This document shows positions 2,374 through 26,995 of a stretch of 30,949 nt of DNA, piece by piece. The stretch is from a virus. A program made the translations under genes and the position numbers. The stretch spans positions 1-30,949 of the IMG/VR virus record IMGVR_UViG_3300047552_000734; one strand, given 5' to 3'. Position 1 is the stretch's first letter; every line of letters begins with the position of its first letter. The notes beneath the pieces are model-generated. The model searched no databases, had not been told where the DNA came from, and worked only from the letters and a program-made list of their open reading frames with translations.

Positions 2374-2612
2374 TGGACCATATACTGGACCATATTGCAG
2401 ACCAAGATAAAGTATTTTGTTTGAAATCAGAGACTTATGACAGAAAGACTGCTTGTGATCGATAAATAGGATACGGATTTTCCGGTTTATTCTGACGGAA
2501 ACCGGGACCACGAAAGCCGCGCCGCGCAAGGGTTGCGGCTTTTTTGTTGGTCAAAATCCGTCAGAACGACATAGAATTAGTCATGGTGGATGCGTACCAC
2601 AGCACGTACCAC
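2374..2612. other. Candidate phage attachment region (attP) with arm-like repeats
   Basis: This gene-free stretch between tail fibre and integrase has several paired short repeats. TGGACCATAT occurs twice with a 12-bp period (2374-2383, 2386-2395). CGTACCAC occurs twice with a 12-bp period (2593-2600, 2605-2612). TTCTGACGGA at 2490-2499 recurs exactly inverted at 2557-2566, each copy followed a few bases on by GACCA when read outward in its own orientation. CCGGTTT (2482-2488) and AAACCGG (2499-2505) form another inverted repeat. Such paired sites upstream of int fit integrase core and arm binding sites. The core crossover sequence cannot be fixed without the host attB. Part of the block is also occupied by a transcription terminator. 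Confidence 0.45.
2513..2545 (+). terminator. Rho-independent terminator after the tail operon
   Basis: An 8-bp perfect stem (AAAGCCGC 2513-2520 with GCGGCTTT 2535-2542), a 14-base loop and a run of T to 2545. It lies about 180 bp after the tail-fibre stop and before the integrase. The A-run on the other side could also make it work for leftward transcripts. Confidence 0.75.
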
Positions 2613-2637
2613 GCCGCTGCCTGACTCAAAATGTCCC

Positions 2638-3804
2638 ATGCCGCTGACCGACACGCAAATCCGCAACGCCAGGCCCCAAGACAAGCCTATCCAGCTAGTC
2701 GACGGGTTTGGGTTGTATCTCGAAGTCCGGCCCACGGGCGCCCGGCACTGGCGGATGCGCTACCGGCTGGATGGCAAGGAGTCTCGCATCTCCATCGGGC
2801 AGTACCCGCTCATGAGCCTCAAGGATGCGCGTGCTGAGCGTGAGCGCATACGAGCACTGCTGGCCGAGGGTATCAGCCCTATCGAGGAAAAACGGGCCGA
2901 GAAAGCCATCAGGCGCAAGCAGGCGCGGGACACGTTCGAGCAAATCGCCCGGGAGTGGCTGGACCGCCGGGCTGGCAAGTGGACGCCGTACTATCAGAAG
3001 GGTGTGCTGTCGTGCCTGGAGCAGAATGCGTTTCCGGCTATCGGCTCGCTCCCGATCCGGCGGGTGACTTCGGCGCACATCCTGTCAATCTTGCAGGCCA
3101 TGGAGGAACGTGGGGTCCACACGTATGCGATCCAGCTTCGGCAGTGGATCAGCGCCATTTTCCGGCATGCGATTGTCACGCTCCGGGCCGACGTTGACCC
3201 GGCGGCGCCATTGAAGGGTGCCATTGACCGGCCGGTGATCCAGCATGCCAGATGCCTATCGCGGGAAGAGATCGATGCTTTTCGGGAGGCTGTGGATGCT
3301 TACAAGGGCAACCGCACCACGGTCTTGGCTCTCAAGTTATTGCTCTACACCTTCGTCAGAACTATCGAGGCCAGGACGGCGCGGTGGGAGGATATTCAGG
3401 GCGGCTTGTGGGTTATCCCTGCGGGCCGGATGAAGATGCGGCGCACGCACTCTGTCCCACTATCAAAGCAGGCACGGGCGGTTATCGATGAGTTGCGGAC
3501 CATCACTGGCAGCAATCAATGGCTGTTCCCAGGGACCCGCGATCCCACGACCCACATGAGCGGGACCACGGTCAACCGGGCGCTGGAGTATATGGGTGTG
3601 GCTGCGACTGGGCATGACTTCCGGGCCACGGCGTCCACATGGCTGAACGAGATGGGCTTTCGGCTGGATGTGATCGAGCGGCAGTTAGCCCACGTCGAGG
3701 CCAATCAGACCCGTCGCGCATATAACCACGCTTTGTACCTGGATGAGCGGCGCGACATGATGCAGAAGTGGGCTGACTGGGTGGACTCAAGCTGCGCGGT
3801 TTAG
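2638..3804 (+). CDS. int: P4-type tyrosine integrase
   Basis: Site-specific recombinase for integration and excision of the phage genome. The N-terminus MPLTDTQIRNARPQDKPIQL is the DUF4102 arm-binding domain of P4-family integrases, which is why the ATG at 2638 is preferred to an upstream in-frame codon at 2590; neither has a strong Shine-Dalgarno. The central SAM-like DNA-binding domain follows, then the catalytic domain with Arg241 (TFVRTIEARTARW), His326 and Arg329 (GHDFRATAST), His352 (LAHVE) and the nucleophile Tyr362 (RRAYNH). At 388 residues it has the usual family length and all catalytic residues are present. Its 3' end overlaps the AlpA-type gene tail-to-tail by 18 bp. Confidence 0.95.
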   Translation: MPLTDTQIRNARPQDKPIQLVDGFGLYLEVRPTGARHWRMRYRLDGKESRISIGQYPLMSLKDARAERERIRALLAEGISPIEEKRAEKAIRRKQARDTFEQIAREWLDRRAGKWTPYYQKGVLSCLEQNAFPAIGSLPIRRVTSAHILSILQAMEERGVHTYAIQLRQWISAIFRHAIVTLRADVDPAAPLKGAIDRPVIQHARCLSREEIDAFREAVDAYKGNRTTVLALKLLLYTFVRTIEARTARWEDIQGGLWVIPAGRMKMRRTHSVPLSKQARAVIDELRTITGSNQWLFPGTRDPTTHMSGTTVNRALEYMGVAATGHDFRATASTWLNEMGFRLDVIERQLAHVEANQTRRAYNHALYLDERRDMMQKWADWVDSSCAV

Positions 3805-3978: not shown

Positions 3979-4240
3979 TCTGCCTCCTCACCGCGAGCAG
4001 TCGGTATTTCCCGGTCGGCAGCTTTTTTGCTGCGTCAAGCAGGCCGATAATTGCCTTGCCTGATATCTCAAAATCGCCTCCTTCAATGGCATCTTGCTTA
4101 TCGGCCTCTGCTTCCAACCGATCAATCAATCCCTGGCTGGCCTGCCTAACAGCACCATCCCATTCGTCCGGGAATCCAGAATTGAGAAAGTTTTGTAAAG
4201 CGCAGGCAGCTTCTTGCAATAACTCACGATTGCTCATCAT
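3962..4240 (-). CDS. Conserved small phage protein, unknown function
   Basis: 92 residues. The N-terminus MMSNRELLQEAACALQNFL belongs to the same short module as its upstream neighbours (M-x-R-E-L-L-xx-A-xx-A-L). The C-terminus GKYRLLAVRRQ resembles GRYNLYAVRLDD of the gene at 4224-4466. It therefore looks like a shuffled product of a local module pool. GAGG lies 4 bases before the first ATG and 7 before the second (4237), so the second may be the real start. It overlaps both neighbours. No catalytic motif is visible. Confidence 0.75.
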   Translation of the reverse strand: MMSNRELLQEAACALQNFLNSGFPDEWDGAVRQASQGLIDRLEAEADKQDAIEGGDFEISGKAIIGLLDAAKKLPTGKYRLLAVRRQNGATA

Positions 4241-4466
4241 CCAACCTCACGGCGTAAAGATTGTATCTTCCACTTTCAAGGCCATCCGTCATCCATCGGT
4301 TAGTTAGGATTCCGTTTTTAAGCTCAATCCAGCCACGCACCACCGGCTCCGGCTTGGCCAGTTCGGCGCGTATCTCATCCAGCAAATCCCAGTCTGCCAC
4401 GTCAACCATCCGGCAATCTTCCATCGCATTTAGCGCCCAATGCAACAACTCACGTTCACGATTCAT
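4224..4466 (-). CDS. Small phage protein with RELL N-terminal module, unknown function
   Basis: 80 residues. It begins MNRERELLHWALNAMED, then DEIRAELAKPEP (compare DIRAELEKQEE in the gene at 4646-5161), and ends SGRYNLYAVRLDDEQS, similar to the end of the downstream 92-residue protein. GGAGA lies about 7 bases before the ATG. It overlaps the next gene by 17 bp and the previous gene by 11 bp, so translation is probably coupled. Function unknown. Confidence 0.72.
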   Translation of the reverse strand: MNRERELLHWALNAMEDCRMVDVADWDLLDEIRAELAKPEPVVRGWIELKNGILTNRWMTDGLESGRYNLYAVRLDDEQS

Positions 4467-4656
4467 TTATCTTCTCCAGCAATTCAACCGCTTCAGTTCC
4501 GCCCATTGTCTGCACCAATTCTGATATGCGCTCTCGCTCTATATCCACGCAAATCCACGCAAATAACAGGGCGCTGGTAGTGAGTACCGTCCTTTTGTCT
4601 CCACTTGGCCATTCAAAAAACTTCTCGGCCTCGGCTTTGATTTGCTCACGGTTCAT
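4456..4656 (-). CDS. Small phage protein, unknown function
   Basis: 66 residues, MNREQIKAEAEKFFEWPSGD at the start and a hydrophobic stretch LTTSALLFAWICVDIE in the middle that might be a buried helix rather than a membrane span. GGAG is 7 bases before the ATG. It overlaps genes on both sides by about 11 bp, consistent with one translationally coupled run. I do not recognise a family. Confidence 0.65.
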   Translation of the reverse strand: MNREQIKAEAEKFFEWPSGDKRTVLTTSALLFAWICVDIERERISELVQTMGGTEAVELLEKINES

Positions 4657-5161
4657 TGATTTGCTCCCCGTATTTGGCGATAGCGGCGCGGGCTATTTCC
4701 CCATGCCATATCAGCATGTCATACGTGCTTTTGTGGCGGCCCATCGACACATCTGCAATTGACTCAAGCGCATCAAGCAACACCTTCGTCCGATCATCTA
4801 CACCGAATACATATGTCTTGATGCCGCTTTCGTAGCCTTTGGCGTAGGTGATCACAAGGTCCGCGTCCCGTTCCTGCCGTTTTTCGAGTTCGTTGGTCAA
4901 TATCTCGTTTGCTTTACGCTCAGATTCAAGTGTGGCTATCGCTGACATATAGTCTGACTCGAGCTGCCGGTGACGCCGTATCTGCGACTCAAGCGATTTG
5001 ACCAAAACCTTATAGGAGCTGCATCTTTTGCACGGTTCATCCTGCTCCTCCTGTTTTTCAAGCTCGGCGCGGATGTCTATGTAAGTCTGCTCCGCTGCAT
5101 AACCCCTGATTCCGCTTATTTCCAACGCCGCAATCGCCCTCTGCAACAATTCTCTACTCAT
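4646..5161 (-). CDS. Coiled-coil phage protein with RELL module and one CxxC, unknown function
   Basis: 171 residues. The N-terminal module MSRELLQRAIAALE is shared with neighbours. A single CKRC pair follows (EQDEPCKRCSSYK), then a long helical, probably coiled-coil stretch (residues about 50-100) rich in Glu, Arg and Leu. The C-terminal end ARAAIAKYGEQINEP repeats the AI(A/T)KYEE end of the two upstream genes. A strong GGAGG site precedes the ATG. It looks like a fusion of modules also found singly beside it. Function unknown. Confidence 0.72.
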   Translation of the reverse strand: MSRELLQRAIAALEISGIRGYAAEQTYIDIRAELEKQEEQDEPCKRCSSYKVLVKSLESQIRRHRQLESDYMSAIATLESERKANEILTNELEKRQERDADLVITYAKGYESGIKTYVFGVDDRTKVLLDALESIADVSMGRHKSTYDMLIWHGEIARAAIAKYGEQINEP

Positions 5162-5472
5162 ATCCCCTCCTCGTATTTAGCGATGGCGAACTTAACGCAG
5201 CTAGTGATTACACTCATATCCCTGGTGTGTCGCCTCTCGGATACTGCCAGCACCGCTCTTAACGTCGATAGCAACACTCTCGACCGCTCACGCTCTACAA
5301 CCAGAGCATCTACTGTAGCCGCATATCTATCATCAAACCCAGCCGCAAGGGCTTTCCCTCTTTCGCGTACACGCTCTTCTGCTTGCGCGGCGTCCCATGC
5401 TTCTTGCACCATTTTCTTTTTTGAGAAAAAGGCACCGTCTCGATTTTCGGACCACCATTTTTCAAATGTCAT
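5158..5472 (-). CDS. Small phage protein with TFExWW module, unknown function
   Basis: 104 residues. The N-terminus MTFEKWWSENRDGAFFSKKK followed by EAWDAAQAEER is the (M)TFExWWxxN...AWxAAQ module common in small phage proteins of unknown role. The C-terminus FAIAKYEEGI matches the ends of the genes on both sides. GAGGA lies 6 bases before the ATG. ATGA overlap with the preceding gene and 4-bp overlap with the following one. Paralogous to 5469-5711 at both ends but with a different middle. Confidence 0.75.
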   Translation of the reverse strand: MTFEKWWSENRDGAFFSKKKMVQEAWDAAQAEERVRERGKALAAGFDDRYAATVDALVVERERSRVLLSTLRAVLAVSERRHTRDMSVITSCVKFAIAKYEEGI

Positions 5473-5711
5473 CTTGATTCCTCATATTTGGTGATGGCGG
5501 CACGGGCTCGATTTTTTGCCCACCACTCAAAATGATCTTTTAGTCCTTCGCCCCATTCCCGTGGTCTAGCATTCATGATGTTTTTCAACTCATCAACCAA
5601 CTCCTTCGCCCGCTCCCGATCTACCTCTTGCGCGGCTTTCCATGCAGCATGTGCCGTGTCTTTATGGTAATGCCACGCGTTTTGATTCTCCCACCATTCT
5701 TCAAAAGTCAT
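5469..5711 (-). CDS. Small phage protein with TFExWW module (paralogue), unknown function
   Basis: 80 residues, MTFEEWWENQNAWHYHKDTA then HAAWKAAQEVDRER, ending RARAAITKYEESR. Both ends are homologous to the downstream 104-residue protein while the middle differs, a sign of duplication followed by exchange of the central part. AGAGG precedes the ATG. Starts inside the stop of a 52-residue Cys-containing protein (ATGA) and ends in an ATGA overlap with the next gene. Confidence 0.75.
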   Translation of the reverse strand: MTFEEWWENQNAWHYHKDTAHAAWKAAQEVDRERAKELVDELKNIMNARPREWGEGLKDHFEWWAKNRARAAITKYEESR

Positions 5712-5866
5712 TTCAGCCTCTTTAGGTTTTTCAGTTTACATTCACCAACCGATCGTTTTGCCGGCCTGACTGTTCTGGTGCACATATCGTTGTACCGCAT
5801 ATATGGGCTACCTTTTGGATGGCCCGCATTCCAGTGGTTCAGACAGCCCTTGCAATGCGGTGTCAT
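5708..5866 (-). CDS. 52-residue Cys/His small phage protein
   Basis: A short frame with four Cys and two His: MTPHCKGCLNHWN at the start gives a CxxC pair, followed by YNDMCTRTVRPAKRSVGECK. The spacing suggests a small zinc-binding protein. Real-gene evidence is the context: its ATG overlaps the previous stop (ATGA) and its own stop overlaps the ATG of the TFEEWW gene (ATGA), so it fills exactly what would otherwise be a gap in an overlapping chain. Partner and function unknown. Confidence 0.65.
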   Translation of the reverse strand: MTPHCKGCLNHWNAGHPKGSPYMRYNDMCTRTVRPAKRSVGECKLKNLKRLK

Positions 5867-5925
5867 CTCAAACTCCACAATGCCGCTACTAGCAGAACGG
5901 ATATTAGGATAATGTTCTCAATCAT
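5863..5925 (-). CDS. 20-residue hydrophobic micropeptide
   Basis: Encodes MIENIILISVLLVAALWSLR, essentially one membrane span with a positively charged C-terminus. Its ATG lies within the end of the preceding gene (overlap 5918-5925) and its stop overlaps the next ATG (ATGA). The perfect fit into the overlap chain supports translation, perhaps as a coupling peptide or a small inner-membrane peptide. Short length makes it uncertain. Confidence 0.45.
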   Translation of the reverse strand: MIENIILISVLLVAALWSLR

Positions 5926-6106
5926 TGGCGTCACTCGGTATCCTGTAATCATAGCTGTCATCTACGCATAGATGGCTATAATATTGAGTGTTCGGCCCTC
6001 CATTGTTCCTGTTAAGGAATCTCTCACACATTGATCGCACTGGGCAAATTGCGCGGGTATCCCAGTGTTCACCAACGCACCGCGCCACGTCATTTAATAG
6101 TTTCAC
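5918..6106 (-). CDS. 62-residue Cys-containing small phage protein
   Basis: MKLLNDVARCVGEHWDTRAI then CPVRSMCERFLNRNNGG and a late SHLCVDD give Cys10, Cys21, Cys27 and Cys47, a spacing seen in many small phage proteins that probably fold around a metal. It overlaps the preceding gene by 17 bp and the following micropeptide by 8 bp. Function unknown. Confidence 0.65.
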   Translation of the reverse strand: MKLLNDVARCVGEHWDTRAICPVRSMCERFLNRNNGGPNTQYYSHLCVDDSYDYRIPSDAND

Positions 6107-6545
6107 ACATCACCCCATCAACCAATTGCAAAACCTTATCAGGACTAAATGAGCGGTCCCTGTAAAACCAGTTTGATTCAACCACACCGGCCTCTGCGCC
6201 GAAGTACGTTGATGATCCTGACCGGCGATCCGGTGCAAGCTGGATTAGGTAGCCTTCATGTGATTCGTCATTAAAAGCAAAGTAGGTTTGCCTGCTGAGC
6301 TTGTATATCTGCCCTGTCCAGCCTACCGCGTCATAACTCAGGCAATTATCACTCGGCTTGCGGGCTATCGTGCGTCCTGTATAGCGCCCCTGCTTGTCAA
6401 TTTGAAACCATGAAAAGCCCTGCATGGTTTGCCCTGAGTACGAATTGATTACAGGGCCGACGAAGGTGCTTCCGAGTACGTTATCACCCGATGGAGGCGG
6501 CGAGAGGGCGTGCAAGGCGGCGGCTAATGTGAGTGACTTAATCAT
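6090..6545 (-). CDS. Hypothetical, possibly exported protein
   Basis: 151 residues. The N-terminus MIKSLTLAAALHALSPPPSG is a short hydrophobic stretch after Lys and could be a weak signal peptide. The rest is rich in Gly, Ser, Tyr and Phe (beta-type), with no catalytic motif I recognise and only two Cys. GGAG lies 8 bases before the ATG. Its first 14 codons closely resemble a separate 19-codon frame at 7703-7762 at the DNA level, so a small duplication has occurred. It starts 36 bp after the DpdA-like gene and overlaps the next gene by 17 bp. Confidence 0.65.
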   Translation of the reverse strand: MIKSLTLAAALHALSPPPSGDNVLGSTFVGPVINSYSGQTMQGFSWFQIDKQGRYTGRTIARKPSDNCLSYDAVGWTGQIYKLSRQTYFAFNDESHEGYLIQLAPDRRSGSSTYFGAEAGVVESNWFYRDRSFSPDKVLQLVDGVMCETIK

Positions 6546-6581
6546 GTATATGCTCCGCGATTGTCTTTATGTAAACCTTGA

Positions 6582-7289
6582 CTACCATGGGTAAATGCTA
6601 TGTCGTGAATTGTGCATTTCAATGCGCTCGACAAGAACCTGTGTTCTCGCCTCCTTTGTTGCAGGCAGATATGTCCCTTTCCATTTCTTGTCTATCCCGA
6701 TATTGCGGGCGACATTCGTAGAGTCGGCACTCGAGAAGGGCCACTCCGTATAAATCCTCGGATTCAACATTCGCAATCCGTGTAGCTTGCAGTTTGGCCT
6801 CCCATCTTCGTCGCAAATATGCGGCAGGACATCCATAAGACGCGCATTCAATTTGGCTACATTGGATGCGTCATATTCACCGCTACTGCCAAGCGCGACT
6901 AGGGGCCATTCGCGTGAAAGCCTAACCAACCTATCAATGGATTCATTTGTATGCCAAACGGCAGCGCCTTCATGCCGGTGGAATGGCCACTCACGCAAAA
7001 GCGCATCGTTATCTTCTTCTGAGCCTTCTATCACGTCTGGAATGACGGCAAAATCGAACCCTGGGTGACGCACCCACTTACCAACGTAAGCGTAATAATC
7101 CAGCCATTTAACGGGCTTTCCAGCTTTCCATAGCGAGAATGCACCGTTATCCAGCGCAAAGGATTGCGTACAGCCGGCCGCAACTTCCGTCTGGTCAGGG
7201 TGAGCAAAGCTGATGAAAGCATGCCGTCCAGTCCATGCGCGAACCGCGCATGTCTCTGGAGTGATCGGCCCGCCATGGTAGTGAATCAC
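6582..7289 (-). CDS. dpdA: DpdA-like 7-deazaguanine transglycosylase (TGT-fold DNA-modifying enzyme)
   Basis: 235 residues, GTG start overlapping the queD stop (GTGA). Motifs in order: FALDNGAFSLW with Asp47, FAVIPDVIEG with Asp85, VWHTNESIDRL, VALGSSGEY, LHGLRML and PFSSADSTNVARN with Asp189. This series fits the beta strands of the TGT/DpdA TIM-barrel superfamily, where acidic residues after strands bind the base and attack the glycosidic carbon. DpdA enzymes exchange guanine in DNA for a 7-deazaguanine such as preQ0, shielding phage DNA from host nucleases. It lacks the Cys/His zinc site of tRNA-guanine transglycosylases and is shorter, like phage short-form DpdA proteins. The adjacent queD strongly supports this role. 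The substrate base and sequence specificity are inferred, not seen. Confidence 0.72.
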   Translation of the reverse strand: MIHYHGGPITPETCAVRAWTGRHAFISFAHPDQTEVAAGCTQSFALDNGAFSLWKAGKPVKWLDYYAYVGKWVRHPGFDFAVIPDVIEGSEEDNDALLREWPFHRHEGAAVWHTNESIDRLVRLSREWPLVALGSSGEYDASNVAKLNARLMDVLPHICDEDGRPNCKLHGLRMLNPRIYTEWPFSSADSTNVARNIGIDKKWKGTYLPATKEARTQVLVERIEMHNSRHSIYPW

Positions 7290-7687
7290 TCCTTGTGTAC
7301 TCCGTGATAAAGCCCTTCACCATTCACCGCCATAGCCCAACAACGATCTGTTTCCCAAACTTTCACCGAGTGCAGGTATTGCAATTCTGGCGCTTTCAAA
7401 ATCCACTCTGCGATATTCTCGGCTGTCGGATTATCAATAATGTCGTTTAGGTATTGATGGTCAAGCTGTTTGATGATTGGATTCATCAACTTGTCTACCT
7501 TGGCGAAGTCCAATCCAGCACAAAAGCCATTCGGCTCAAATGTGTCTCCGCGAACTTCGACCTCGACTCGATAGTTATGCCCATGAAGTCTGTAACACTG
7601 GTGGTCTTCTGGCATGCGCAAAAGCCTGTGAGCAGCGGAAAATGTGTAAATCCTGCCGATGCGTGAATACTGCCAAGTACGCTTCAT
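7286..7687 (-). CDS. queD: QueD, 6-carboxy-tetrahydropterin synthase
   Basis: 133 residues from the ATG at 7687, chosen over a GTG one codon earlier because GAGG is 8 bases upstream. Family residues are all present: zinc ligands His20 (FSAAH), His35 and His37 (LHGH), catalytic Cys31, Asp76-His77 (LDHQYLND) and Glu112 (VKVWET). QueD converts dihydroneopterin triphosphate to 6-carboxy-tetrahydropterin, the first committed step to preQ0. No queE, queC or folE is in the window, so the rest of the pathway must come from the host or from genes outside the window. It overlaps the DpdA-like gene by 4 bp, which implies supply of preQ0 for DNA modification rather than for tRNA. Confidence 0.92.
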   Translation of the reverse strand: MKRTWQYSRIGRIYTFSAAHRLLRMPEDHQCYRLHGHNYRVEVEVRGDTFEPNGFCAGLDFAKVDKLMNPIIKQLDHQYLNDIIDNPTAENIAEWILKAPELQYLHSVKVWETDRCWAMAVNGEGLYHGVHKE

Positions 7688-7702
7688 CACAATGACCTCT
7701 AG

Positions 7703-7762
7703 TTATAAATTATCGCTACAGAATCGCCTTGCGGCGGCGGCTAGTGTGAGTGCGGCTATCAT
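7703..7762 (-). CDS. 19-residue candidate peptide, remnant or leader
   Basis: MIAALTLAAAARRFCSDNL, with GGAG 8 bases before its ATG, ending 15 bp before the queD start. Its first codons match those of the 151-residue gene at 6090-6545 closely in DNA (ATGAT, CACTCACA, TAGCCGCCGCC), so it is either a truncated duplicate or a short leader peptide for queD. The start site overlaps nothing else. Confidence 0.35.
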   Translation of the reverse strand: MIAALTLAAAARRFCSDNL

Positions 7763-7764
7763 GG

Positions 7765-8118
7765 TTAATCTCCATCCCAAATTCCATCAGGGCGCATTTT
7801 TGCCAGCGCAAGCAGATGGAATAGCGCGCGTTTTGCATTGCCTTCTGTTGGTTTCCAATAGTCATCATCAACGTCGTCACCAAGAACGACTACGGCCATA
7901 GTAAGGTGCGGGATACTTTCGGCGCCAGTCATGCCGTAAATACTGCGGATACCAGCGCCGCCAAGACAATCAAAATGCTTTCCGTAGTTATAGGTTACGT
8001 TTAAACTCGCTTCCCGCGTGCCCCCGATGGCATAGGTTCCGCCCTTCATGTGGTGCGGTTCGTCAAGCTCCAGGGTCTTGCGGGTTACTGGGTCCACTAG
8101 TCGTATGTCATAGCTCAT
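7765..8118 (-). CDS. Conserved phage protein, unknown function
   Basis: 117 residues. MSYDIRLVDPVTRKTLELDE, HHMKGGTYAIGG, LNVTYNYGKHF, SIYGMTGAESIPHL and DDYWKPTEGNAKRAL form a pattern I recognise from many phage and prophage proteins without assigned function. The very regular conserved blocks suggest a compact globular enzyme-like or binding domain. AAGG precedes the ATG. Four-base overlap with the upstream 86-residue gene. Confidence 0.8.
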   Translation of the reverse strand: MSYDIRLVDPVTRKTLELDEPHHMKGGTYAIGGTREASLNVTYNYGKHFDCLGGAGIRSIYGMTGAESIPHLTMAVVVLGDDVDDDYWKPTEGNAKRALFHLLALAKMRPDGIWDGD

Positions 8119-8375
8119 TGAGCCACCTTCAGTCGCTCAGCCAGCGCCATCAGTGCTTCCCGGGTTTCACCGGAGTAGGTCATGGCCATGCCTTCGGTGG
8201 TTTGCACGATTGCGGCACGTTCATTTGCTGCCGCGTGGCGTGCTTGATACTCAAGCTGTTCGTGGGCATTTGAGGCAGATATCCAGGCGAACTCCATATC
8301 CGCCTGGTTCATTTTCATGCGGGTTTCGACGGGTAGTTGTTCCCACCATTGTCTGAATTTCGACAGTACGCTCAT
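8115..8375 (-). CDS. Small helical phage protein, unknown function
   Basis: 86 residues, predicted mostly helical: MSVLSKFRQWWEQLPVETRM, then MEFAWISASNAHEQLEYQAR. GAGGG lies just before the ATG at 8375. It overlaps the next gene by 4 bp. It is separated from the helicase gene by a 164-bp gap with a strong inverted repeat. Function not recognised. Confidence 0.7.
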   Translation of the reverse strand: MSVLSKFRQWWEQLPVETRMKMNQADMEFAWISASNAHEQLEYQARHAAANERAAIVQTTEGMAMTYSGETREALMALAERLKVAQ

Positions 8376-8539: not shown

Positions 8540-10078
8540 TCATGCGGCTTTTTTGCCTTTCTTGCTTTCTGGCTTTTTCTCAATCAGCAGGTCGGACTGG
8601 ATGAACCGCAGTTCCCGTTTGGCCCGGGTGATGCCGACGTAGCGCAGGTTGGTTTCCTGCTCGAGTTGCCATGCTTGTTTTGCACACTTCAGCGGGATCA
8701 GATCGGCGTCGAGGAACCAGACCCGGTCGGACTCAAGTCCCTTGGATTTGTGGATTGAGCAGAGCGTGATGGCCTGCCGGTTCTTGTCGTCATCCGAGAA
8801 CATGGCTTCGATGCTGCGGATCAGGTCCGGGACTGTCTTGACGGTGGTGCGCTCGACGATGGCATGGATGCAGTTCACTTTGTCGTTGACCGCCTCGACC
8901 ATGTCGTCACGCTCATCCTTGGCCCACCGCTTGACCTCGGTCTGCTGCCACTCGCCCAGCTTTTCGAGCAAGCCGTGAGCGCCCTTGATGCCTTTCGGCT
9001 GGAGCTTCTCGATCAGCTTGACCAGACCGCCACCGATGTCTCGGCCGAGGATGCGGGCCGGGATGCCTTGCGAGATCAGCTTCCAAGCCAGGGAGATAAC
9101 CGGGGCGTTCCGGCGGCAGATCACCATGTCGCCGCCCTGGAGTTCGGTCAATTCCCAGGCCGCTACCTGCTGGACCTCGCCGTCTGGCGCTGTCTCGGAT
9201 GCCTCGATGCTCGGCATGACCTGCTGGGCTGCTGCTACCACGGCTTTGGCGCATCGGTAGCTGATGGAAAGGGGCAGTTCGTCCGCATCGAACTTGTGGC
9301 GCAAGGTGTTCATCGCCTCGGCGTCCGATCCGCTGAAGCCGTAGACCGCCTGGCTTTTATCGCCGACCGCGATCAGTCGGCCGCCTTCTTTCAGGACCAA
9401 GCTGACCAGCTTGGTCCGCACCGGGCTGACGTCCTGGGCTTCGTTGACGAAGACCCAGTCGTAGCGGTCGTTCGAGAACTCGCGGATCGCCGGTATGTAG
9501 ATCTGGTCGTCGAAGTCGATGACCCGCTTGTCGGCGGCCAGGTTGATGCTGGCCTGCACGCAGACCCGGGTGTAGTCGATCACCGTCTGCCTGACGTACT
9601 TGTCGACCGGAACCCCGAAGTGCTCGATCAGGTACTGCCAGGACTCGGCGTTATCCTCCATCAGCGGCACACCCTTGCAGCCCTGCGGCACCAGTCCCAT
9701 GCGGCGCACGTAGCCACACAGGGCCATGACCGGCTCGGCAAATTCCCGGTAGTCGAACTTGTCGACGATCTGTTCGCGGACCAGCTTGCGGAGCTTGCCG
9801 CTATCGAGGATCGGGCGATTGATGCGGCTGGCCAGGATGCTGTGGCCAAGACCGTTGAATGTCTTGACGTCGACGTGCTTGGGGGCACGCTGCTGGAGTT
9901 CGTCGGCGATTGATCGGTTGAATGCCAGCATCAGGACCGACCGGCCTTCCGGGATCAGTTCCAGGGCCTTAATGATCGTCGTGGTTTTTCCACTCCCGGC
10001 GCAGGCTTGTATAACAGCACTGCCTGTACCGTCGGTGATGAAATCGAATACCGCTTGCTGGTACTTGCTTGGTTTCAT
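8540..10078 (-). CDS. UvrD/PcrA-like superfamily I DNA helicase
   Basis: 512 residues from the ATG at 10078. The upstream in-frame codon at 10150 is TTG and falls inside the promoter, so it was not chosen. Motif I/Walker A GSGKTT is at residues 28-33 (QACAGSGKTTT), motif II at 212-216, motif III GDKSQAVYGFSGSD at about 239-252, motif IV/V region TLCSIHKSKGLESDRVWFLD and motif VI NLRYVGITRAKRELRFI near the end. The enzyme should unwind DNA 3' to 5' in replication, repair or recombination. Oddly motif II reads VNEAQD instead of the usual VDEAQD: the Mg-coordinating Asp is Asn, which may weaken ATP hydrolysis. It has its own promoter with an operator. Confidence 0.9.
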   Translation of the reverse strand: MKPSKYQQAVFDFITDGTGSAVIQACAGSGKTTTIIKALELIPEGRSVLMLAFNRSIADELQQRAPKHVDVKTFNGLGHSILASRINRPILDSGKLRKLVREQIVDKFDYREFAEPVMALCGYVRRMGLVPQGCKGVPLMEDNAESWQYLIEHFGVPVDKYVRQTVIDYTRVCVQASINLAADKRVIDFDDQIYIPAIREFSNDRYDWVFVNEAQDVSPVRTKLVSLVLKEGGRLIAVGDKSQAVYGFSGSDAEAMNTLRHKFDADELPLSISYRCAKAVVAAAQQVMPSIEASETAPDGEVQQVAAWELTELQGGDMVICRRNAPVISLAWKLISQGIPARILGRDIGGGLVKLIEKLQPKGIKGAHGLLEKLGEWQQTEVKRWAKDERDDMVEAVNDKVNCIHAIVERTTVKTVPDLIRSIEAMFSDDDKNRQAITLCSIHKSKGLESDRVWFLDADLIPLKCAKQAWQLEQETNLRYVGITRAKRELRFIQSDLLIEKKPESKKGKKAA

Positions 10079-10126
10079 GGCTTGTCTCGGTGGTTGCCCC
10101 GGGCGGAATGCTTGGGGCTTGGGGGA

Positions 10127-10168
10127 ATGATGCGCTTGATGGGGCGTCAAGTCAATAGCATTGCTATT
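10127..10168 (-). promoter_or_regulatory. Leftward helicase promoter with operator palindrome
   Basis: Operator AATAGCATTGCTATT at 10154-10168. On the minus strand its right arm runs into a -35 box TTGACT (10150-10155), followed after exactly 17 bp by CATCAT (10127-10132, 4 of 6 to the -10 consensus). A bound repressor would cover the -35. The helicase ATG lies about 50 bases downstream. Confidence 0.65.
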
Positions 10169-10697: not shown

Positions 10698-11201
10698 TTA
10701 CACGCCTGTCCGCACACCGGCCGGCATGCGCTGAGAGACGGCTGGCGGCTGATTGGCGGGGTTCACCCGGATGGGTGACTTGTCCTTAATGCTCTCCCGC
10801 TTGACGATGATTCTGGCCTGGACCTGATCGGCATCCCGCATGGTTTTGGTATCTGCCGGGGTGTTCTTGCTCAGGATCAAGGCCCGTTTCAACTTCTTGT
10901 CGGCGGATGACATATAGCTCTCGACCTGGGCCGCATTTTCACTCGGCAGGAGGATGCGGTAGTTGCCCTTGGTCTGCGCCAGATACTTGCCCTCGCGGAG
11001 CAAGATTTTCCTGACGTAATCCACCGCCGACAATTCTTGCATGCTCAGTTCCTGGAAGGTGACCATTGGGGCGACCTCCGGGACCTCGATACCGATCACG
11101 CTGCGGACGGCATCTGACGGGATGAATGCGCCATACTGATCCAGCTTATTGCGCCTGAAGTATTCCAGCAGTTCACGTGCTGGGTTCTTTTTGTCAGTCA
11201 T
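10698..11201 (-). CDS. Phage protein of unknown function, partner of the 199-residue gene
   Basis: 167 residues from the ATG at 11201, chosen because GGAG is 7 bases upstream and because it overlaps the preceding stop by 8 bp. It begins MTDKKNPARELLEYFRRNKL; the middle reads VRKILLREGKYLAQTKGNYR and ILLPSENAAQVESYM; the C-terminal 40 residues are basic and Pro-rich, probably disordered. No catalytic motif is visible. Together with 11194-11793 it forms a two-gene unit enclosed by two blocks of structured repeats. Confidence 0.75.
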   Translation of the reverse strand: MTDKKNPARELLEYFRRNKLDQYGAFIPSDAVRSVIGIEVPEVAPMVTFQELSMQELSAVDYVRKILLREGKYLAQTKGNYRILLPSENAAQVESYMSSADKKLKRALILSKNTPADTKTMRDADQVQARIIVKRESIKDKSPIRVNPANQPPAVSQRMPAGVRTGV

Positions 11202-12276: not shown

Positions 12277-13266
12277 CTAAGCCGCTTTTTTATCCATCCC
12301 ACCCCGAATTGCCGCCACAGCCTCGATGACCTTCAGTAGTTGGCTTTCGCTCAAGTCATCCAGTTCCGCGACGATCTGTGCGCGAAGTTTGGCTGCGACG
12401 ACGGATGCTTTGACTGGTGTCGGCGTGGTGGCCTCGACGATGCGTTGTTCTTCGTGCTTAACCGCTGCTTTTGCCAATGCGGCCTGTTCCTCTCGGAGTT
12501 TCTGCGCATCGATCCGTTGCTGCTCGGCTGCGACCCGCTGCGTGATCAGACCGGCAAGCGCGTCGGGGTCGTAATGGCAGACCCTGGCGAAGTCATGTTG
12601 GAACAAAAACCAGTTGTCCCCGATGGCTTTGCGGTTGGCCTCGATCCGATCCGCAAGCTCATTAGCCGCGATCTTTTGCTGGGCCAGTTCCGCGTCGAGC
12701 GCATCTCTGGAGCCCTTGATGGATTTCTTGCCTTTGATGACGTCACCGAATGGCACAGCAAGCACCCATGGTCCCCCAAGGCGCCTGTTTAGCGCGTCAA
12801 CGTGCTGAGTTAGCTTGTCGTGATATTCGCGCACCAGATCGATCCGGATGCTGTCTTTGCGGGTCTTGACCAGCTTGTCCAGCGTCAGCCGTTTTTGTCG
12901 GGCTTCTTCGCGGATGTCGTCAATCGCCCGGAACAGTTCATCTATGCTGGCCGTCTGGCTCAGTGCATTCTGCTTGGCCGCCTCGAGTCGATCCTCGACA
13001 TCTCGGCACCATCTCACCGTGCGTTCCGCGTCGGCAAAATCCTCATCGGTTTCCAGATCGGTCTTAATGCCATCGAACACTGCCAGCGCGTGGGATTTAA
13101 AGGCATCCAGGTTCGATGCCGTGACCATCCCGGTGACCTCGATGTGCAAGGCCGGAAGTTGGTCGGGTGCGCGGCCGGCGACCGGAGTCGGGGTTTCCTG
13201 GTGCTGGTATTCGGCCAGGTCTTTGGCAAACTGCTTCCAGCCGGTTCCGGCACGCTTTCGTACCAT
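12277..13266 (-). CDS. C-terminal part of a YqaJ-type recombinase fusion, separated by a frameshift
   Basis: This frame codes for GWKQFAKDLAEYQHQETPTP, the normal end of a phage YqaJ exonuclease domain, followed by a long helical domain: LHIEVTGMVTASNLDAFKSH, DLETDEDFADAERTVRWCRD, KRLTLDKLVKTRKDSIRIDL and RIEANRKAIGDNWFLFQHDF. In related phages these two parts are one protein of roughly 500 residues, as I recall. Here they lie in different frames; the first credible residues are near 13243. The apparent ATG at 13266 overlaps out-of-frame YqaJ codons and has no Shine-Dalgarno, so independent initiation is doubtful. The coiled domain probably oligomerises or contacts Bet. Confidence 0.75.
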   Translation of the reverse strand: MVRKRAGTGWKQFAKDLAEYQHQETPTPVAGRAPDQLPALHIEVTGMVTASNLDAFKSHALAVFDGIKTDLETDEDFADAERTVRWCRDVEDRLEAAKQNALSQTASIDELFRAIDDIREEARQKRLTLDKLVKTRKDSIRIDLVREYHDKLTQHVDALNRRLGGPWVLAVPFGDVIKGKKSIKGSRDALDAELAQQKIAANELADRIEANRKAIGDNWFLFQHDFARVCHYDPDALAGLITQRVAAEQQRIDAQKLREEQAALAKAAVKHEEQRIVEATTPTPVKASVVAAKLRAQIVAELDDLSESQLLKVIEAVAAIRGGMDKKAA

Positions 13267-13760
13267 GCGAACAGCATGTCATCGCGGTTGCCAGATGAAG
13301 CCATGAACAGGCACTTCTCAGCCCCTGAGAGGAGCAAAACCTGCTCAAGCTGAGGATGGTATTCCCCCGGGATGACGCCGCCCCTTAGCGCCTCTCTGAG
13401 CTTGTTGTTCAGTGATTTATGCTCGAAGGCGATGTTGCCCATGAGGGTCACGCCGTCGGTCGATGCCGAGAGCGGCATACCGTCGATGTCCTTCGCGTGG
13501 GTGGCAGGGTAAAGTTCTTCGCCGATGATTTCCTCGGCCCACGGTCGGGCAATCGCCTCGTAGGCGTGGCCCCGATCAAAGATTTCTTGCTGGGCGTCAG
13601 AGACTTCCGGCGCGATGCCGGTAGCCTTCAGTTTTAGCAGGTCCGACCGTGACTTATGGGGGCTGATGTTCAGCATGGCCGATGCTTCGGAGGCGTTGTA
13701 GCTGCTGGCCCGATGCGCATGCCACTCGGGAGACCCTTGGATCAAGTTTTTTTCGCTCAT
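13014..13760 (-). CDS. YqaJ-like viral recombinase exonuclease (frameshifted)
   Basis: Starts at the ATG at 13760 overlapping the bet stop (ATGA). Residues 1-172 are a clear YqaJ/lambda-exonuclease domain: IQGSPEWHAHRASSYNASEA, Glu68 (GHAYE), Asp102 (SASTDG), Glu113 and Lys115 (FEHK), and a Gln-rich helix HPQLEQVLLLSG. After YESVPE (codon 172, nt 13247-13245) the frame turns into low-complexity Ser/Pro/Arg sequence that is not homologous, while the expected continuation lies in the other frame. One extra A after GAA would join them. The enzyme degrades one strand from DNA ends, giving Bet a single strand to anneal. It may be inactive, expressed by frameshifting, or a sequencing error. Confidence 0.85.
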   Translation of the reverse strand: MSEKNLIQGSPEWHAHRASSYNASEASAMLNISPHKSRSDLLKLKATGIAPEVSDAQQEIFDRGHAYEAIARPWAEEIIGEELYPATHAKDIDGMPLSASTDGVTLMGNIAFEHKSLNNKLREALRGGVIPGEYHPQLEQVLLLSGAEKCLFMASSGNRDDMLFAWYESVPEPAGSSLPKTWPNTSTRKPRLRSPAAHPTNFRPCTSRSPGWSRHRTWMPLNPTRWQCSMALRPIWKPMRILPTRNAR

Positions 13761-14620
13761 TGCGGTGCTCCGTTTTCGTAAGATGCAACCCACTCCTCGC
13801 TGGCCTGTTCGGCTGGAACCGCCATGGCGTGTATGGCCTCCTGCATGGCTCCGTCGACCACGTATTTGGTCGCCAGCTTTGCGATGATGCCATCAGCATT
13901 GCTGGTGCCGGCGGACAAGGCTTGAAGGATGCGTGGCTTCTGCTTCTCGAGGATTTCGGCGGTCAGTGTCGGCATCTCGGGTTTCTCGGGCTCTTTGCGG
14001 AACTGGCCCTCGATGACGTTATCCTCGCTCAGTGACTTGCCTTCCATTTCATCGGCTGTCGGCTGGGCTCCGACCTCGGGGAAGGCTTTTCTCAGTGCCT
14101 GGGCCTCCGCACATTTACTGACCTGGCCATACGGGCGCTTGGACCACATGGCGTTCGGGGCGATACTCCTTTCTTTGCCGCCTTTCACGGCGTAGTTCTC
14201 TTTCCAGCGTTCGATTGCAGAGAACTCGACGATTTCCCCACTGGGCAGCCGGCGCTTGACCGTCACCTTGCACCAGACCGGGTAGGTGATTTCCACCCCG
14301 CCGATGTTCTCCGTGACGTCGGGTCCGAACTCTGGTTCTGTGACGCCGGCATACTGGCCGGATCGGGCTGCCATCACCCGGTACGAGCCGACCCCAGGCA
14401 TGATGACGTCACGCATGCGTCCGGCTTTTGAGTCCCACATGGGGACGATGTGAACCGGCTTTTGCATCGGGTCAAGGCTGGATGCCTTGCAGTACCCGAT
14501 GACAAGTTTAATGCTTTCGGTGCTGGCTCCCGGGTAAAGGCTGGACTCCAGCACCGAGAGCAGTTCCTGCTCGCTCATGGCAAGCGCCGGAATGGCGTCC
14601 TGCTTTGTGGCTGCGCTCAT
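13757..14620 (-). CDS. bet: Bet, single-strand annealing recombination protein
   Basis: 287 residues from the ATG at 14620, chosen for its AGGAGA site. The conserved Bet/RecT core is clear: GYCKASSLDPMQKPVHIVPM, WDSKAGRMRDVIMPGVGSYR, an EFSAIERWKENYA segment, WSKRPYGQVSKCAEAQALRK and AFPEVG. The protein anneals complementary single strands bound after exonuclease resection, in replication-linked recombination. It is followed immediately by the exonuclease gene with a 4-bp overlap. Its own promoter region contains an operator palindrome, so it can be expressed apart from the five small genes upstream. Confidence 0.93.
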   Translation of the reverse strand: MSAATKQDAIPALAMSEQELLSVLESSLYPGASTESIKLVIGYCKASSLDPMQKPVHIVPMWDSKAGRMRDVIMPGVGSYRVMAARSGQYAGVTEPEFGPDVTENIGGVEITYPVWCKVTVKRRLPSGEIVEFSAIERWKENYAVKGGKERSIAPNAMWSKRPYGQVSKCAEAQALRKAFPEVGAQPTADEMEGKSLSEDNVIEGQFRKEPEKPEMPTLTAEILEKQKPRILQALSAGTSNADGIIAKLATKYVVDGAMQEAIHAMAVPAEQASEEWVASYENGAPQ

Positions 14621-16328: not shown

Positions 16329-16577
16329 ATGCCACGAAAAACCTATGACAAGAATCTGATCCTGGAGCGAGCCTGCATGGATTATGGCGGGCAAGGCGAG
16401 GTAGCCAAGGCCCTGGGGGTCACGCAGGGCCTGGTCAATCAATGGGTCTTGGGCCGAACCCGGGTTACCGCTGAACGGGCGCTGGAACTGGTCAAGCTGT
16501 TCAAGTTCAAGATTCGGCCCGAGGACCTGTGCCAGGAGGCCGACTGGGCTGTTGCTCGAAAACTGCCGAAAAAATAA
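16329..16577 (+). CDS. Cro-like helix-turn-helix repressor
   Basis: 82 residues. MPRKTYDKNLILERACMDYG then QGEVAKALGVTQGLVNQWVL is a Cro/YdaS-type HTH with the turn at ALGVTQG, and GRTRVTAERALELVKLFKFK completes the domain. It is divergent to the CI-like gene and shares its operators, as in lambdoid switches, where Cro lowers repressor synthesis and commits to lysis. The ATG has only a weak Shine-Dalgarno, fitting a short leader. Confidence 0.88.
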   Translation: MPRKTYDKNLILERACMDYGGQGEVAKALGVTQGLVNQWVLGRTRVTAERALELVKLFKFKIRPEDLCQEADWAVARKLPKK

Positions 16578-25549: not shown

Positions 25550-25848
25550 GCAATCCTGAACTATGGGCGCTCACCGAGCACTGCTGCCGACGCTGTTTTG
25601 GCCGGGTGTTGCGGCGCTATGTGGGTGGTCGTCACCAGGCCCTGTGTGCCGAATGCGGCCTGCAGGTCGATGGCTACCCGCGAGCCCTGTGCTGCTGCGG
25701 CGTCAAGATGGCCGATGGCAAAGACGCCGGACTTCGTTGTGTCCCGAACGACGACATCACTCCTGAAACCCCGCACCGCGTGTTGGTTCGTCATATCAGC
25801 ACGCTGCCGCATGATCCGCTGAAAAAGCATGAACCAACTCCGGATTGA
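25546..25848 (+). CDS. Second Cys-rich phage protein, possible regulator
   Basis: About 100 residues if started at CTG 25546, which overlaps the preceding stop in the same NTGA way as its neighbours; GTG at 25534 is an alternative start, and the frame is open further upstream. LTEHCCRRCFGRVLRRYVGG, ALCAECGLQVDGYPRALCCC and GLRCVPNDD contain many Cys (CCxxC, CxxC, CCC), so a zinc-binding fold is likely. Same type of small regulator as the gene before. Overlaps the methyltransferase start by 20 bp. Function unproven. Confidence 0.6.
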   Translation: MSNPELWALTEHCCRRCFGRVLRRYVGGRHQALCAECGLQVDGYPRALCCCGVKMADGKDAGLRCVPNDDITPETPHRVLVRHISTLPHDPLKKHEPTPD

Positions 25849-26995
25849 CTACCTGCCGCTGGATGGGCTGGTCCCGTATGAGCGGAATGCCAAACTGCAT
25901 CCGCAGGAGCAGGTTGAAAAAATTGCCAACTCGATCCGCGAGTTTGGCTTTAACGCCCCGATCATGCTGGATGACCGAAACGGCATCATTGCGGGTCATG
26001 GGCGGGCGATGGCGGCAAAACTGCTGGGTATCAAGCAAGTGCCCTGCGTGTACCTGTCGCATCTCTCCGACGTCCAGAAGCGGGCCTACATTCTGGCCGA
26101 CAATCGCACGGCGCAGTCGGATTGGTCGGTTGATCTGTTGTCGCTGGAACTGAAGGACCTCCAGTTCGAGGACTTTGACCTGAGTCTCACAGGGTTTGAC
26201 CCAGGCGAACTGGAAATGTACCTGACCGATCCGGAGCCGCCGGAGGAAGAAGGTGAGAAACCGTTTGACGAGCCCGAGGGTGAGCCGATCTCAATTCTCG
26301 GCGACATCTGGCAGTGCGGCCCGCATCGGATTGGCTGTGGTGATGCGGCCGATAGCACATTCATCGAAACGCTATTAGACAGAAGTCCGGTTGATCTGGT
26401 TTATTGCGATCCGCCCTATGGGATCGGCGAGGCCGCCGGGCGTAACAAGAGCCGGGGCAAGATAGCCAAGGCCAAAGACTACGGCAACGACGACTGGGAT
26501 AACCAGATTCCCTATGCCGCGATCCAGACCGCGCTGAGCCTGTCCAAGAACGTCGTGCTGTGGGGCGGCAACTACTTCGCCGACAAACTGCCGCCATCGT
26601 CCTGCTGGCTGGTGTGGGATAAGGAAAACGGTGCCAATGATTTCGCCGATTGCGAGTTGGCCTGGACTTCGTACCCCAGTGCCGTGCGCATGTTCCGGTT
26701 CCGCTGGGCCGGCATGCTCCAGGGCGACATGAAGAACAAGGAGGATCGGGTTCACCCGACGCAAAAGCCGGTAGCTCTGCATAAGTGGGCCTTCGAGACA
26801 TTGAAAGCGGGCGGGGTGGTGGTCGATCTCTTTGGAGGATCGGGAAGTAGTTTGATCGCCTGCGAGAAAACTGGCCGAGCGTGTTTCACGTGCGACATCA
26901 CGCCAAAGTACGTCGACGCTATGGTGCGGCGCTGGCAGGACGTGGCGGGAACCCACGCGGTGCATGCGGAAACGGGGGATGTGTTTCCGGGGTGA
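25829..26995 (+). CDS. ParB/Srx-domain fused to N4/N6-type DNA methyltransferase
   Basis: 388 residues. Residues 1-95 form a ParB-like nuclease/Srx domain: PLDGLVPYERNAKLHPQEQV, SIREFGFNAPIMLDDRNGII, AGHGRAMAAKLLGI and AYILADNRTAQ. From about 155 a methyltransferase: motif IV DPPYG at 194-198, HPTQKP 309-314 and motif I VDLFGGSGSS 332-341, so the order IV then I is that of beta-class adenine N6 or cytosine N4 enzymes. It methylates DNA, probably protecting phage DNA. Such ParB-MTase fusions are frequent in phages. No cognate nuclease nearby. Only a weak Shine-Dalgarno. Confidence 0.92.
   Translation: MNQLRIDYLPLDGLVPYERNAKLHPQEQVEKIANSIREFGFNAPIMLDDRNGIIAGHGRAMAAKLLGIKQVPCVYLSHLSDVQKRAYILADNRTAQSDWSVDLLSLELKDLQFEDFDLSLTGFDPGELEMYLTDPEPPEEEGEKPFDEPEGEPISILGDIWQCGPHRIGCGDAADSTFIETLLDRSPVDLVYCDPPYGIGEAAGRNKSRGKIAKAKDYGNDDWDNQIPYAAIQTALSLSKNVVLWGGNYFADKLPPSSCWLVWDKENGANDFADCELAWTSYPSAVRMFRFRWAGMLQGDMKNKEDRVHPTQKPVALHKWAFETLKAGGVVVDLFGGSGSSLIACEKTGRACFTCDITPKYVDAMVRRWQDVAGTHAVHAETGDVFPG

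Follow-up and report, generated by a model that had tools for sequence, protein, structure and literature searches.

A queD-like gene and a gene for a short protein resembling DpdA overlap in the 30,949-nucleotide stretch of phage DNA analyzed here (the window; Table 1). A reading made from the sequence alone had taken them for a 7-deazaguanine DNA modification pair of a temperate phage, protecting its DNA from restriction. The locus raises the question of whether the two proteins are what they were taken for, where the precursor of the modified base would come from, and whether such a modification would act as a restriction shield.

Table 1. Features of the window, with position, strand and basis of assignment
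Feature	Position	Strand	Basis or remark
Tyrosine integrase	2590-3804	+	Pfam Phage_integrase (5e-22), Arm-DNA-bind_3, phrog_1
Lower-GC cargo block of the leftward gene cluster, holding queD-dpdA	4000-8100	-	~50% GC, against 57-58% around it
dpdA-like gene, predicted short DNA guanine transglycosylase (235 aa, GTG start)	6582-7289	-	phrog_887, hhalign, AF2/Foldseek, conservation
Overlap of queD stop and dpdA start (4 bp, GTGA)	7286-7289	-	Recurs in many relatives
queD-like gene (6-carboxy-5,6,7,8-tetrahydropterin synthase)	7286-7690	-	Pfam, NCBIfam, PDB, alignment
UvrD-like helicase	8540-10150		Source of generic GajB matches in PADLOC
RecE-like exonuclease region	12277-13793	-	Frame split; 19 bp fewer at 13243 than in the 90,100-bp contig
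YdaS/Cro-like regulator	16329-16577		Divergent from the leftward gene cluster
ParB-like domain fused to N6/N4 DNA methylase	25829-26995		
ORF of >1301 aa	27046-30948		Open at window end; repeated 'GRWHKQ'-like motifs

The DpdA-like protein is related to a DNA transglycosylase

No Pfam or NCBIfam model matches the DpdA-like protein, and PDB sequence searches with the protein and with its profile returned no relevant match. It does, however, belong to phrog_887, 'queuine tRNA-ribosyltransferase' (E = 8.4e-75), as does DpdA from phage 9g (E = 2e-98), whose activity on DNA has been demonstrated (PMC6884629). Alignment of the two proteins by hhalign gave a probability of 95% (E = 2e-8) over residues 45-211, and paired D47, H170 and D189 with D72, H196 and D215 of 9g DpdA, respectively; the same pairs were obtained in a multiple alignment. 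By the same method, the probability against E. coli Tgt was only 1.3, and by sequence the protein is not assigned to the bacterial tRNA TGTs.

The AF2 model of the protein is a TIM barrel (pLDDT 82, pTM 0.83). The top BFVD matches from Foldseek include nine named queuine, queuosine or guanine tRNA transglycosylases, together with many unnamed proteins, and the Vibrio phage nt-1 protein R9TGF0 stands at rank 30. In the PDB, the matches are TIM barrels, among them the archaeosine TGTs 1iq8 and 1j2b at a TMq of 0.56-0.59, although these fold matches are not TGT-specific, as other TIM barrels score equally by E-value. The predicted structure of the 235-residue protein is thus a TGT-like TIM barrel and does not fall outside the TGT fold, an outcome that would have spoken against the sequence-only reading. 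Along with the shared phrog_887 family, the hhalign match and H170, this fold bears out the description of a short TGT/DpdA-like protein.

Conservation was assessed by aligning 63 short relatives with four long DpdAs, one of the long sequences being too short to count. Both D47 and D189 are invariant in the short relatives and are also Asp in the alignable long DpdAs; we take them to be the two catalytic aspartates of the TGT superfamily. Residues D47, H113, E116, G134, H170, P184, D189 and S190 are common to the short relatives and the long DpdAs. Three acids had been proposed as candidate active-site residues. Of these, D47 and D189 hold up, whereas a catalytic role for D85 is unproven: all the short relatives share it, yet it lies opposite a Ser in 9g DpdA and in one other long protein, with an Asp in a third. 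H196 of 9g is the histidine separating DpdA from DpdA2, which is without it (Hutinet 2019, PMC6884629), and its equivalent H170 is invariant in the 63 short relatives, placing the window protein outside DpdA2. DpdA2 from nt-1 is of the same function class as the window protein and a distant fold match to it, but lacks the histidine that the window protein keeps.

An intact QueD is encoded by the overlapping gene

The queD gene can start at GTG 7690, giving 134 residues, or at the adjacent ATG 7687, giving 133, and AGAGG lies just upstream of the ATG. Its product matches Pfam PTPS with an E-value of 4.4e-29, and its nearest solved structures are 6-carboxytetrahydropterin synthases (PDB 2oba, 4ntm and 3qn0). 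Against the NCBIfam QueD equivalog TIGR03367 it scores 88.3 bits, just under the cut-off of 89.25, and is therefore classed as QueD-like, its active site being complete. Alignment with E. coli QueD (4ntm) shows that active site to be entire, with the zinc histidines H21, H36 and H38, the catalytic C32, the Asp-His pair D77/H78, and E113. The earlier claims that QueD is complete and that its gene overlaps dpdA by 4 bp are both confirmed; the overlap itself makes translational coupling likely. PADLOC did not match the pair to any defence system, and its GajB matches in the window proved generic (Table 1).

The phage carries queD without the rest of the preQ0 pathway

A 90,100-bp IMG/VR contig represents the same phage: across the 30,949 bp of the window, the two differ by a single substitution and a 19-bp gap. 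Both of its ends match window positions 10899-11036, and this 138-bp end overlap, which is not letter-perfect, makes a circular or circularly permuted genome of about 90 kb probable. The 19-bp difference, which splits the exonuclease frame in the window, is either a strain variant or an assembly error. The phage has a contractile tail, as judged from its sheath gene, the product of which is 42-47% identical to the sheaths of Bordetella PHB04, Pseudomonas Dolphis, Jeremy and Touem01, and Aeromonas ST4; a nucleotide search found no close phage. Its description as temperate is supported by the integrase, AlpA, the YdaS/Cro-like regulator and RecT, in addition to which the window encodes SSB and dUTPase. 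When 274 genomes from one class were scanned at a strict limit, no match to a host was found. Elsewhere in the window, the ParB-like/methylase fusion is possibly a second DNA-modifying enzyme of the phage, to judge from its domains, and the long open frame at the window end is perhaps a polyvalent protein.

The 90,100-bp contig contains one PTPS protein, and searches of it revealed no QueC, QueE, FolE, QueF or Vut_1 transporter. A protein of PF03883, which we take to be the DpdC family and thus a possible partner for the conversion of preQ0 to ADG, was likewise not found in the contig. The 90-kb contig therefore has QueD alone, and not the complete phage preQ0/G+ pathway of FolE, QueD, QueE, QueC and an amidotransferase. 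The proposal that only queD is carried thus extends, as far as tested by these searches, to the whole phage, and with no other pathway genes present the host would have to supply the rest.

Supply genes recur beside short dpdA genes

Related queD-dpdA pairs exist elsewhere, so the window pair is not singular. DpdA of this short kind, common among temperate phages, was located at 308 IMG/VR places in a first scan, in 107 phage records and at 77 bacterial loci, the last being mostly from Pseudomonadota and presumably prophages. For 66 representatives at 85% identity, with roughly 10 kb searched per locus, a supply gene (QueD, QueE, QueC or a Vut_1-type transporter) was present in 15, always within 1.4 kb of dpdA, and absent nearby in the remaining 51. 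This linkage, new here, spans several lineages and comprises QueD in 11 representatives, a Vut_1-type transporter in four, QueE in two and QueC in one; most of the QueD genes share 4 bp with dpdA. Such an overlap occurs in the window, in L004, L083, L089 and L195, and in ten loci whose QueD-like protein is of a second type. The gene rows vary: at L010:2531-5065, flanked by integrase and terminase genes, the order is QueE, QueD-like, a small ORF, short DpdA and QueC, and in L015, L017, L018 and L020 it is QueE, QueD-like and DpdA. The preQ0 transporter YhhQ belongs to the Vut_1 family, a member of which is encoded directly upstream of DpdA in Flyfo siphovirus Tbat1_6. In several lineages a Vut_1-type transporter adjoins short dpdA, at L274:2519-2995 and in L011, L072, L167, L198, L204, L238 and L239.

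At least eight changes of the QueD label are required on the DpdA tree, which implies that queD-dpdA pairs have repeatedly arisen or broken up; this was one tree built by a quick method only, and its long branches leave deep placement unsure. In L083, QueD is 68% identical to that of the window and DpdA 42%, as if its queD and dpdA had been combined anew. The same locus holds a helicase-like frame (L083:6321-8720) with a seeming intein-like insert and, in a different frame, an HNH-like ORF (7507-8235).

The QueD proteins themselves are of two types. The active site is complete in type A, which comprises the proteins of the window, L004, L083 and L089. Type B, of about 100 residues, occurs in L010, L012, L015, L017, L018, L020, L021, L022, L095, L098, L099 and Caulobacter phage DMCA, and keeps a histidine, an HGH motif and the Asp-His pair, but is without the Cys and Glu of E. 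coli QueD. Type B genes mostly overlap dpdA by 4 bp, the overlap being 1 bp in L272 (L272:3205-3501). A tentative interpretation, which we regard as possible but doubtful, is that a swappable precursor supply slot beside the short phage dpdA has been filled independently with QueD, the Cys-less QueD-like protein, QueE/QueC or a Vut_1-type transporter, and that the Cys-less protein is not a CPH4 synthase but may have acquired a new function, as a precursor carrier to DpdA or as a partner in base modification, such as ADG formation.

Comparison with known systems

The window pair is a new example of an already known kind of DNA-modification system. Its DpdA is most readily compared with the short 'singleton' gammaproteobacterial proteins, group 3 of Hutinet 2019 and the MED16 DpdA/TGT_1 cluster, as found in SPN3UB, SfI, BTP1, SEN1 and 7-11. 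It is similar to these in length, and is 59-62% identical to Klebsiella, Salmonella and Shigella phage proteins, 42% identical to the DpdAs of MED16 and SEN1, and 34% identical to that of 7-11. In phages with singleton DpdAs, however, reports or annotations show no preQ0 gene next to dpdA, whereas the window has a coupled queD. In DMCA, an annotated 6-carboxytetrahydropterin synthase does lie immediately upstream of a DpdA of 39% identity, with a 1-bp overlap, yet it is the type B protein without the catalytic Cys, while the window QueD is full and canonical. The dG+ pathway of 9g shares with the window a QueD and a homologous DpdA with the same Asp, Asp and His. Phage 9g, though, carries nearly the whole pathway (DpdA, FolE, QueD, QueE and Gat-QueC), and its DpdA has 317 residues to the 235 of the window protein, the short form lacking a C-terminal region that the 9g protein has.

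Proposed mechanism and alternative explanations

It appears probable that the pair is a two-gene phage DNA-modification unit, in which DpdA inserts a 7-deazaguanine and QueD boosts the supply of preQ0. In the proposed mechanism, the two genes would form one unit, probably translationally coupled. QueD would convert dihydroneopterin triphosphate to CPH4 and so raise the flow into preQ0, with FolE, QueE and QueC provided by the queuosine pathway of the host. The predicted DpdA, a TIM-barrel transglycosylase with D47 and D189 as its likely acid/base and nucleophile pair, would then replace some guanines of the phage DNA with a 7-deazaguanine base, for which preQ0 is the likeliest candidate and ADG a possible end product. 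A QueD-family (PTPS) protein was present in all six host genomes of relatives that were checked, which fits a booster role for the phage enzyme.

The nearest experimentally measured relative found is MED16, at the identity given above. In the DNA of this Pantoea phage, with only dpdA, dADG was measured at 354 per 10^6 nucleotides, or ~0.13% of G, and the DNA was still cut at G-containing sites by EcoRI, EcoRV, HaeIII, BamHI and other enzymes (PMC8306585); in Salmonella phage 7-11 the level was 50 per 10^6, or ~0.02% of G (PMC6884629). At such levels a general restriction shield is unlikely, and sparse or site-specific modification would be more plausible. Of the original proposal, 7-deazaguanine modification of DNA in a temperate phage is therefore retained as the best reading, given the 9g homology, the TGT-like fold, the linkage to supply genes and the dADG of two relatives, while restriction protection is unsupported for the short form.

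These same measurements lend some weight to a different view, that the short DpdA has diverged, to bind or exchange guanine at a few specific sites or to serve another task such as prophage DNA marking, regulation or packaging, with QueD supplying the base and no bulk anti-restriction effect. The singleton DpdAs of gammaproteobacteria cluster apart and have perhaps diverged (Hutinet 2019, PMC6884629), and in MED16 no effect on restriction enzymes was visible (PMC8306585). The catalytic residues are nevertheless invariant, and a limiting precursor could explain the low levels, a limitation that a phage QueD would relieve; we thus consider divergence rather unlikely.

An action on tRNA, by which the pair would raise or change the queuosine of host tRNA during infection and aid translation, is quite unlikely. 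While the tRNA queuosine pathway draws on QueD, the parent fold is that of TGT, and some cyanophage que genes have been read as tRNA-queuosine helpers (PMC9837993), the window protein matches DpdA and not Tgt, and keeps the DpdA histidine. Moreover, 9g DpdA failed to complement a tgt deletion (PMC6884629), and it is in DNA that the dADG of phages with related short DpdAs was found (PMC8306585, PMC6884629). Finally, queD-dpdA might be neutral or decaying cargo with no present role, as its location in the lower-GC block and the absence of QueD from most relatives could suggest; with both frames intact, all key residues kept and the 4-bp coupling seen in many loci, this is very improbable.

Implications for short-DpdA phages

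For the large group of phages with a lone short DpdA, the open issue is whether these enzymes modify DNA, which precursor they use, and why the modification is so scarce. Where dpdA is coupled to a gene for QueD, QueE, QueC or a transporter, as in the modification unit favored here, nature has in effect set up an experiment on precursor limitation, and a comparison of modification levels with and without a supply gene makes that question testable.
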